Assembly: GCA_949927415.1 (NCBI GenBank)
Contig: CATLFB010000001.1
Location: 434,001 to 498,000 of the forward strand
Source: an uncultured Candidatus Melainabacteria bacterium
Lineage (GTDB): Bacteria > Cyanobacteriota > Vampirovibrionia > Gastranaerophilales > Gastranaerophilaceae
Direction: 5' to 3'
DNA length: 64,000 bases
Below the pieces are notes generated by a model, which worked only from the letters and a program-made list of their open reading frames with translations, was not told the origin of the DNA and made no database searches. Shown piece by piece: positions 28,684 to 38,872 of the stretch. Position 1 is the stretch's first letter, and each line of letters begins with the position of its first letter. The translations under genes and the position numbers were made by a program.

Positions 28684-29617
28684 TTAAAATTTTACGGGAT
28701 AATCATCCGGAATCCTCATCCCATTTTGGAAAATCAGAACCGTACACCAATGTTCCCTTTGCCAAAAAGTACCGTGAGGAGTGGTAAATGGCGAGACACA
28801 ATTCTCAATTATTTTAGCTCGGGATGCATTACCAGAATCAATAGCCTTCAGATTCATTTTATAATCATTCTTTTTTAAATTTCGCTGAACTTGAAAATGA
28901 AAAATATCCTTTCCTGCAACCAAAACTTTTTTACTCGGAGAAAGAATTATCCACCACATCATCGCAGCCGAATTATCAACCCCAAGTCCTTTTCCCTGAT
29001 TTTGTTGCATAAACCCCAGCCCAACGCCATTTTTCAACCTTACAAAATAAGCCAAATGAGGTGAATAAACACCTTCATTTTTAGCATTAGCAATCTTAAT
29101 ATCATTTCCGTATCTCTTAGTAATTTGCAAATGAGGCGCAAAATAATGCTCAAAAACTTCTATAGAAAGAGTTCTCGAATAACCATTTCCGTCAGCATCT
29201 CCATATTCTTTATAAATTTCCTCCGGAATAAATGCTAAATCATGTTCAGAATTTACCTGCTCAAGCACATTAGACAATAACGAATATGTAGATTTTAATT
29301 TATTCTCCGCCACGACTTTCCTGTAATATCCCATTAGATTTGGGATTGTAATAGCTGCAATTATACCAATAATACCAAGCGTAACGAGCACCTCAGCCAG
29401 TGTAAATGCAATCTTTTGGTTTGATGAATTAATTTCAGGAAATCCTTTTGCTTGAAAGGCAAAACTATCAAATTTAGAAACTTTTACCTTAAAAATATTA
29501 ATGGCATTGTGCCATTGACAAATAGTTCGGATTTTTTCATCATTTAAAAACCTTTCAGGAGTACTGTTTTTACTTGCCCCCCCCCCCGGCAAATCCAATC
29601 ATAGCTTGTTTTTCCAT
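28684..29617 (-). CDS. Type IV pseudopilin-like protein with G-tract (frame OFF)
   Basis: The prepilin part contains IAFTLAEVLVTLGIIGIIAAI, a hydrophobic helix and a long variable body (KVVAENKLKSTYSLLSNVLEQ...). The start with a good ribosome-binding site (GGAGGT 7 bases upstream) is ATG 29617, giving MEKQAMIGFA before a run of 11 G. With 11 G that frame reaches TAA within two codons of the run. The pseudopilin frame is open without the ATG from 29598; one G fewer (10) would join the start to GGGASKNSTPERF... and the pilin. The tract is therefore a likely switch, in the OFF frame here. A homopolymer assembly error could give the same result. Confidence 0.75.
29577..29587 (-). repeat. G11 homopolymer in the pseudopilin 5' region
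   Basis: Eleven consecutive C on the plus strand (G on the coding strand), at codons 11-14 of the ATG 29617 frame. Ten G would put the ORF in frame. A similar tract at 33426 has the same relation to its gene. Confidence 0.85.
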
Positions 29618-32670: not shown

Positions 32671-32703
32671 ACCCCGGAGAGATAATTTCCGGGGCGTTTT
32701 TTA
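32671..32703 (+). terminator. Terminator after gyrB
   Basis: CCCCGGA at 32672-32678 pairs with TCCGGGG at 32688-32694, preceded by an A-rich run and followed by CGTTTTTTATG. Confidence 0.85.
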
Positions 32704-32712
32704 TGTAATAAA

Positions 32713-33466
32713 TTAATCCAAAAGCAATGATTTATAGTAACAATGCCCGTCCGGACACCAGCGTTCCTTTTCAATAATATCATCCATGGGAATAATTATA
32801 TTCGGGCTTTGCATATAGTTTGAATTGCTGTTATTTTGTCCAAAGCGCAGAACATATCTGTCTTTGCCGAGTTTATTCGGATTTTTGGCTCCATTAACAT
32901 CAATAAGAATCGGGTATTCATCATTGTGGTATAAATGCCACGCCATACCAGAAGCATCCACAAAGGCATAACTATCCTTGTAGCAGCCAAGCCATAGAGG
33001 AGCACTTCCCCTCCAATATCCGGCCTGACCCTTTTCGCAAACCCAGCATTCATCGGCATTGTCATTAAAACATGTTTTTACGGTTTTAAAATATTTTGAT
33101 AAAGTTTTAAAATTTTCACCAACAGCATCAGAACGCAGAACTCCCATACCATCAATATAAGATGTCATATCAATCACTTCGCCTTCGTTTTGCATTCTCA
33201 AGAATGCCTGTGAAATACCGGAATAAGCCTTTTTATAGGCTGAGTGCCATTCCTTTTCATTCGCCCTGTTTATTAGTGAAGGCAAAGTCATAGCAGCAAC
33301 TATACCAATAATTCCCAGCGTAATAAGAACTTCCGCCAATGTAAATCCAAAAACGCAGAAATAAGAGAATGAAAATCTCTTCAAACAATCCGGCCAAAAC
33401 CTTTTAAGGAGCTGATTAGAGGACGCCCCCCCCCCCCTGGAATTCAGTAATAACAAGCTTTTTCAT
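32713..33466 (-). CDS. Type IV pseudopilin-like protein with G-tract (frame OFF)
   Basis: Pilin head FGFTLAEVLITLGIIGIVAAM, then LPSLINRANEKEWHSAYKKAYSGISQAF and a body with cysteines and IDVNGAKNPNKLGKDRYV, the shared C-terminal motif. The start by ribosome-binding site is ATG 33466 (GGAG 8 bases upstream), MKKLVITEFQ, then 12 G. In this frame translation stops seven codons into or after the run (TAA). The pilin frame needs 11 G: then GGGASSNQLLKRF leads into the pilin. So, as at 28684, the sequence is one G long and OFF. The prefix GGGAS-x-N is shared with the 28684 gene. Confidence 0.75.
33426..33437 (-). repeat. G12 homopolymer in the pseudopilin 5' region
   Basis: Twelve consecutive C on the plus strand, at codons 10-14 of the ATG 33466 frame. 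Eleven G would restore the frame. Confidence 0.85.
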
Positions 33467-33554
33467 ACAATAGTCTCCTTTTTCTATATAATTTATTATA
33501 CAATCTTTCTTGAAAATTTTCAACATCCAAATCTCAAAACTTCTCCGGGCACCG

Positions 33555-38164: not shown

Positions 38165-38872
38165 ATGTACAAAACAAACGGTTTTACGCTCGCAGAAGTC
38201 TTGATAACACTTGGAATTATCGGAATAGTTGCCGCGATGACGCTTCCTACTGTTATAAACAATTCGCGCAACAAACAGCTGGAAGCAGGTTTGAAACGCA
38301 GTTATTCACTAATAAGTCAGGCTCTCGATTTGTATCAGGCAGAAATCGGAGAGCGCATAACTCCGGATACAAAAGGAGTAAAAAAACAACTTTTGAAGTA
38401 TATAAAAACCGCAAGAGACTGCGGACAGGGGTCAGAAAGTACAGAAGAAGCACTGGCAAAAGTTTGTATACCAAATTATGTAAACACAGGTTCCACCGAA
38501 AAAAATTCAACAAAATACAAAACTTTTAATGGCAGCACAAATATCAATCTAGGCTACTTTGATGACGGACAATTTGTCATGACTGACGGAAGTCTTGTTC
38601 TTTTAGAAAATCGCATTTTTGAAGGTAGGGACAACAAGCTTTACATATCAGTTGACGTTAACGGCTTCAACAAAAATCCTAACAGACTTGGACATGACCT
38701 TTTCATGTTCCAGATTGATAAAAAAGGAAAACTTCTTCCGATGGGAGTTGAAGGAACAGATTACAACAACACAGACTTTTGTTCTCCGACATCAACGTCA
38801 AATATGAACGGTGCCGGATGTACTTATAACGCGCTTACAAATAAAGATTATTTTAAAAATCTGCCTAAATAA
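38165..38872 (+). CDS. Type IV pseudopilin-like protein
   Basis: 235 residues. Leader MYKTNG|FTLAEVLITLGIIGIVAAM, LPTVINNSRNKQLEAGLKRSYSL, then a variable body with four or more cysteines, TDGSLVLLENRIF and VDVNGFNKNPNRLGHDLFMF. The head and the D-x-N-G...P-N-x-L-G-x-D motif match the copies at 3609 and 32713. GGAGG precedes the ATG. Terminated by the hairpin at 38876. Confidence 0.9.
   Translation: MYKTNGFTLAEVLITLGIIGIVAAMTLPTVINNSRNKQLEAGLKRSYSLISQALDLYQAEIGERITPDTKGVKKQLLKYIKTARDCGQGSESTEEALAKVCIPNYVNTGSTEKNSTKYKTFNGSTNINLGYFDDGQFVMTDGSLVLLENRIFEGRDNKLYISVDVNGFNKNPNRLGHDLFMFQIDKKGKLLPMGVEGTDYNNTDFCSPTSTSNMNGAGCTYNALTNKDYFKNLPK

Follow-up and report, generated by a model that had tools for sequence, protein, structure and literature searches.

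Prepilin-like genes poised one base out of frame at G and C tracts: a candidate phase-variable pilin repertoire in Gastranaerophilaceae

The phase-variable gene sets of Campylobacter, Helicobacter and Neisseria, known as phasomes, cover many gene functions and are found in mixed ON and OFF states. A studied bacterial example with pilus genes is Bifidobacterium breve UCC2003, in which the sortase-dependent pilus loci bbr_0113 and bbr_1889 carry tracts of G10–G11 and are OFF in the reference sequence (PMC9187656). Experiments have shown that these loci are turned ON by the loss of one base (−1+3n), and in-frame alleles form a minority that rises in mice (PMC9187656). Here we describe a family of type IV prepilin-like genes that probably constitutes a large pilin repertoire, phase-variable by replication slippage, with OFF as the default and ON a single slip away.

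The window, by which we mean the whole 64,000-nucleotide stretch of DNA analysed, carries one such gene on the minus strand at 32713–33466. A sigma70-like promoter (TTGAAA-17-TATAAT, 33495..33523; 11 of 12 consensus bases) and a Shine–Dalgarno (SD) sequence, AAGGAG, 8 nt 5′ of the start codon (33475..33480), precede an ATG at 33466–33464. From there the frame reads MKKLVITEFQGGGGVL*, reaching a G12 tract (33437–33426), the proposed slippage switch, after nine codons and two bases; it continues past the tract as GGGGVL* and ends at TAA 33418–33416, which delimits an OFF-state leader ORF at 33416..33466. The prepilin frame, which reads ASSNQLLKRF...GFTLAEVLITLGIIG..., has no stop between the tract and TAA 32715–32713 and lies one base off the ATG frame, the two being joined at 11 (or 14) G. 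If the tract were in frame, translation would enter this frame (32713..33425), in which the leader SSNQLLKRF... is followed by G|FTLAEVLITLGIIGIVAAMTLP; cleavage is expected after the G at 33348–33346 and would leave a mature pilin domain at 32713..33348. An earlier sequence-only reading had proposed that the ATG frame meets a TAA soon after 12 G and that 11 G would restore the frame, and both statements hold. A terminator-like hairpin in the interval between this gene and gyrB (32672..32694) is listed for the plus strand; in the minus-strand reading, TGTTTTCGTATTTTTT comes after it.

A second tract pilin gene lies at 28684..29617 on the minus strand (promoter 29673–29645, ATG 29617, G11 at 29587–29577). 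Its prepilin frame, GASKN..., is in frame at G10, so the design and the OFF offset of one base are indeed those of the first gene, as the same reading had stated, while the tract lengths differ (G12 versus G11). Seven overlapping G9 matches occur in the window against 0.03 expected from shuffles, and two tracts of at least 9 G within 64 kb are far above chance. At 38165–38872 the window also has a prepilin without a tract (MYKTNGFTLAEVLITLG), whose leader is short and ordinary; it offers a natural comparison for the tract genes.

Both genes belong to a family of about 35–40 tract pilin genes in this genome (2.18 Mb in 22 contigs, 99.86% complete, with 66 G/C tracts of at least 8), of which the gene at 33466 is an ordinary member. 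In this gene and across the family, the frame is set by the length of a homopolymer within the 5′ coding region. The architecture observed is an own sigma70-like promoter, an SD, an ATG, a lead-in of 20–38 nt and a tract of G10–13 or C11–12; beyond the tract the ATG frame soon meets a stop, and a prepilin (FTLAEVLITLGIIG) is encoded in a different frame. Most tracts in the genome sit in one kind of leader, consisting of SD, ATG, a lead-in such as KKQAIIEF and the tract, which falls 7–13 codons after the start; downstream come residues of the type A[SP]xNxxLKxF, then a leader that varies from 11 to 225 codons, and the prepilin motif. The promoter usually stands 20–60 nt 5′ of the ATG, with a mean of 2.2 mismatches against 3.9 in shuffles (n = 35). 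The ATG-frame stop follows the tract within a few codons (median 3). The genome contains 78 prepilin N-methyl matches, about half of them tract-free, and comparison with the number of tract genes indicates that roughly half carry a tract.

Several further features of the leaders were seen. The segment between tract and motif seems able to accept intergenic repeats inserted in frame, up to 225 codons here (L075 3462, L073 3468, L182 and loci of G022, with translations HCERERSNPA, HPELDSES and SLDRSRNKFGMT). Contigs C5, C7, C16, C17 and C18 break at tract leaders (L046, L054, L061–L063), where the downstream sequence is repeated, and some tract pilin genes are thus truncated in the assembly. A G18 tract, L073 9519 (G000:C1:388518, minus strand), has no open leader and is apparently intergenic.

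For counting, we used the 35 genes of this genome that have an SD, an ATG, a tract and a recognised prepilin motif. One base fewer would bring 32 of them into frame and the other change the remaining three; none is in frame, and the shared offset departs from an expectation of 1/3 with p = 1e-12. Tracts of C11 or C12 are present in 5/35, with the same offset as in G tracts. These poly-C leaders (MHREDSIIT-C11; L051 3479, L053 3384, L059 3102, L070 3899 and L084 3127) have an unrelated lead-in sequence and the same ATG-frame offset, and most have a SANxKGF-like stretch after the tract. Outside the 35, a leader with G10 at a contig end (L050) continues in frame as a prepilin-like ORF that is short and divergent. 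Prepilin frames are open to their stop in nearly all tract genes; the absence of any stop between tract and motif partly reflects how the genes were chosen, as only motifs lying in an open frame were accepted. Alternative start codons in the pilin frame were considered and rejected because TGA (aTGActg) closes that frame just upstream in many members; an SD and start between tract and motif exist in only 2/35 genes.

We extended the count to 115 genes from 12 unevenly sampled genomes of the genus. Relative to the in-frame (ON) length, 96 stand at ON+1, 11 are in frame and 8 are in the other OFF state. The modal length follows the class of flank that sets the ON length: where ON is 10 the tract is 11 (13/15), where ON is 11 it is 12 (70/79) and where ON is 12 it is 13 (11/21). 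With lengths permuted among genes of the three flank classes the ON+1 share would be 51%, against 83.5% observed, and in 20,000 permutations the table statistic never came up to the observed value. After clustering by flank to reduce paralogy, ON+1 remains the majority state in 28/35 clusters (p = 2e-8). The quantity kept is therefore the offset and not the tract length. A common mutational tract length as the cause was rejected, since tract length depends on flank class. The sequence-only reading had argued that two independent genes with one design and one OFF offset speak for a real mechanism. That inference is strengthened by the counts for this genome (32/35), the genus (96/115) and the flank clusters (28/35), and the sharing of design and offset stands; the independence does not, as the two are members of a set of about 35 whose leaders are paralogous.

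The same counts bear on whether the offset is an artefact of assembly or sequencing, with true lengths in frame and homopolymer miscalls shifting them by one. G tracts are hard to sequence, consensus assemblies can misstate their length by one, and at one B. breve locus the reference is one base away from the length found in the majority (PMC9187656). Such errors, however, would not track the flank class of each gene, nor would they reverse direction in another genus (G034, below), and near-identical in-frame and out-of-frame paralogues within one assembly would not be expected. The outcome that the earlier reading named as its refutation, assembly errors with in-frame lengths throughout, does not fit an offset that is consistent over many assemblies, alike in G and C tracts and opposite in another genus, and we regard an artefact as very unlikely.

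In other genera of the family, the offset is again held, at different lengths and on either side of the ON state. In genus g10 (G022), 30/38 genes are at ON+1 (modal G13, ON at 12), and in genus g22 (G034), 37/46 are at ON−1 (modal G10, ON at 11); the genes are thus poised one slip from ON, on a side that depends on the genus. The shift seen is +1 in g1 and g10 and +2 (−1) in g22 and a few g7 genes, the tract genes of G034 and G019 needing one base more. In the genus of the window, genes at ON=12 are more often ON (5/21, against 6/94 at ON=10–11) and depart more often from ON+1 (9/21 against 10/94; p = 0.001), and the commoner ON state at ON=12 is in line with a length-dependent slippage bias. 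Within a sample of the phylum, an SD-ATG-G10 pattern occurs in 84/170 genomes of Gastranaerophilaceae, up to dozens of times per genome, and in 9/216 genomes outside the family, with 1–3 matches each; none of the outside examples checked was a prepilin. At the surroundings of gyrB in sister species, a tract pilin is at the same place only in L260, with G12 and the same offset. Tract leaders in other genera of the family sometimes precede non-prepilin genes (L351 in G237, L352 in G388, L353 in G400 and L362 in G247); the tract ORFs of G237 and G247, named from translation alone, are epimerase-like and likewise out of frame.

That a single offset recurs in dozens of genes, whether the tract is G or C and whatever the flank class, and persists over large divergence could also mean that the OFF-by-one allele is itself functional, with RNA polymerase slippage or ribosomal frameshifting giving steady low levels of pilin. 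The nearness of the ATG-frame stop to the tract (median 3 codons) suits such recoding. Among the 40 tRNA genes found (G000), the only tRNA-Gly genes are UCC and GCC, so the GGG runs lack a cognate CCC tRNA, which also fits frameshifting on them. The direction is nevertheless reversed in g22 (G034) and in a few g7 genes (G019), and the uniform direction across the family that a programmed frameshift gene would lead one to expect is not met; the opposite offset in G034 weakens the idea that one +1 ribosomal frameshift serves all members. Also against recoding are the in-frame alleles in most deeply sampled genomes, tracts of 10–13 that exceed what a frameshift site needs, replication slippage as the mechanism of the studied bacterial analogue (PMC9187656), and the location on A/T runs of the bacterial transcriptional slippage surveyed (PMC1088944). 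Steady expression through recoding is thus unlikely in our estimation, and the same doubt attaches to its broader form, a genome-wide regulon in which dozens of pilins would be expressed only by RNA-level recoding at G12/C11 with direction tuned per genus. RNA-level frameshifting is not excluded.

In-frame alleles one slip from the modal length were observed in relatives (11/115 in the genus, 6/38 in G022 and 8/46 in G034). L182, a sister-species homologue of the window pilin (G012), has the predicted G11 tract and a continuous 357-codon frame, and is ON, with a mature domain 64% identical to that of the window pilin; two further homologues, L129 and L181, are OFF with G12. Near-identical paralogues distinguished only or nearly only by the tract were also found (L245, G13 OFF and G12 ON; L229, G10 and G12). 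The sister-species homologues are 62–64% identical to the mature window pilin, with pN/pS of 0.32–0.40, and among all four proteins pN/pS is 0.27–0.40 with synonymous sites near saturation; the pilins are therefore under purifying selection, though their consensus sequences are mostly OFF. These ratios are hard to reconcile with decay, in which the tract genes would be pseudogenes and the tract-free pilins the live ones. The lack of in-frame tract genes in this genome (0/35) and the tract-free half of the 78 prepilin-like matches would agree with decay, but the frames open to their stops, the retained promoters and the non-random shared offset would not, and we find this reading scarcely credible.

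The products are, as judged from their sequences, type IV prepilin-like proteins, and there is no direct evidence that they form a pilus. The window pilin scores 19.3 bits against TIGR02532, over the cut-off of 16.3, and 18.2 bits against N_methyl PF07963, under the cut-off of 21.2. It has the prepilin cleavage/methylation motif G|FTLxE and a hydrophobic helix (predicted at 4–54), and its structure model (pLDDT 74) shows a long helix at the N terminus and a beta region. In structural comparison, type IV pilins rank highest (3sok, Z 4.1; 1ay2, 3.8; 2hi2, 3.6), with low Z scores, and a Foldseek search of the PDB with the model gave no match at E 0.001. The genome has one prepilin peptidase match (PF01478, 27.9 bits, over cut-off). 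Searching the genome collection with the window pilin protein gave only one distant match, at 28%, in a MAG labelled Tissierellia bacterium.

A possible second layer of control is offered as a lead only. Across the genus, a CTCCT about 12–16 nt 3′ of the tract can pair with the SD (AGGAGC(T):(A)GCTCCT) and is strongly complementary to it; at the window gene the SD-region complement is AGCTCCTT (33406..33413, minus strand), suggestive only of an SD-masking hairpin. Predicted folds pair the SD with downstream sequence in 17/30 leaders of this genome and 20/25 in G012, and in G034 both sides of the hairpin are altered (GGAGA:TCTCC). Within genomes, SD:CTCCT covariation is weak (p = 0.05 in this genome and 0.09 in G012), and because re-pairing within a genome is nearly equal, the covariation rests mostly on the difference between genera. 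The pairing is absent in G022, so the hairpin is not essential; where present, it may dampen translation in the OFF state.

Under phase variation by replication slippage, the account we favour, each gene would be transcribed from its own promoter, as inferred from the promoters found, and translation would begin at the ATG, the frame of the tract deciding between a leader peptide of roughly 15–25 residues and the full prepilin. Because the ATG frame stops within a few codons at the consensus tract length, no pilin would be made. A one-base slip, here from G12 to G11, would fuse the short leader with the prepilin frame and turn the gene ON in that cell, and the reverse slip would switch it back OFF. 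Selection would hold genes in the OFF state, exactly one common slip away from ON, at ON+1 where tracts tend to contract and at ON−1 where they tend to expand. With genes OFF yet one slip from ON, a population should hold many small subpopulations with different pilins.

Reversible switching in the population is inferred; so are the display of the pilins at the cell surface and their part in attaching to a host or in antigenic variety. Against phase variation stands the fact that alleles in and out of frame by tract length were seen only between homologues and paralogues: each species was represented by a single consensus genome, and in no strain or population did a tract show two states. MutS1 matches were found in 40/40 genomes searched, 37 over the cut-off and this genome included, and loss of mismatch repair as the cause was rejected on these matches. 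Together with a modal offset held over deep divergence, the presence of MutS1 suggests that these tracts may be less mutable than those of classical phase variation. The rarity of the second OFF state (8/115) needs a strong slippage bias or selection for switchability, and recoding explains it more directly. If slippage is nonetheless the mechanism, a poorly studied bacterial family maintains a large phase-variable repertoire drawn from one pilin family, in which almost all genes are silent yet one slip from expression, and pilus display would be a cell-by-cell lottery. It would explain the broken look of these genes in consensus genomes and allow a direct test of whether selection acts on the offset of a tract and not on its length. 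Gene callers will split or truncate the tract genes.

In the literature searched, we found no paper linking Gastranaerophilales with phase variation and no slippage or frameshift system that comprises dozens of pilin genes with long G/C runs. Programmed slippage and frameshifting resemble the present genes in a slippery homopolymer that joins two frames at a fixed offset with a frame-0 stop after it (PMC1088944, PMC5009743); the transcriptional cases surveyed there lie on A/T runs (PMC1088944), and here the direction differs between genera. The B. breve loci share with ours a gut bacterium, a pilin gene, an intragenic G tract, a short upstream ORF with promoter and SD, a reference state that is OFF and the same ON offset. 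They differ in encoding sortase pili at two loci per genome, at operon starts, whereas the genes described here encode prepilin-type proteins, number about 35, are dispersed, have an extended leader, use G and C tracts and hold a common offset genome-wide. With the phasomes of Campylobacter, Helicobacter and Neisseria they have in common poly-G/C tracts that lie in surface genes and determine the frame by their length (PMC6321876, PMC2823697, PMC5084427), and they are set apart by one dominant protein family, nearly all of it poised OFF, at one offset.
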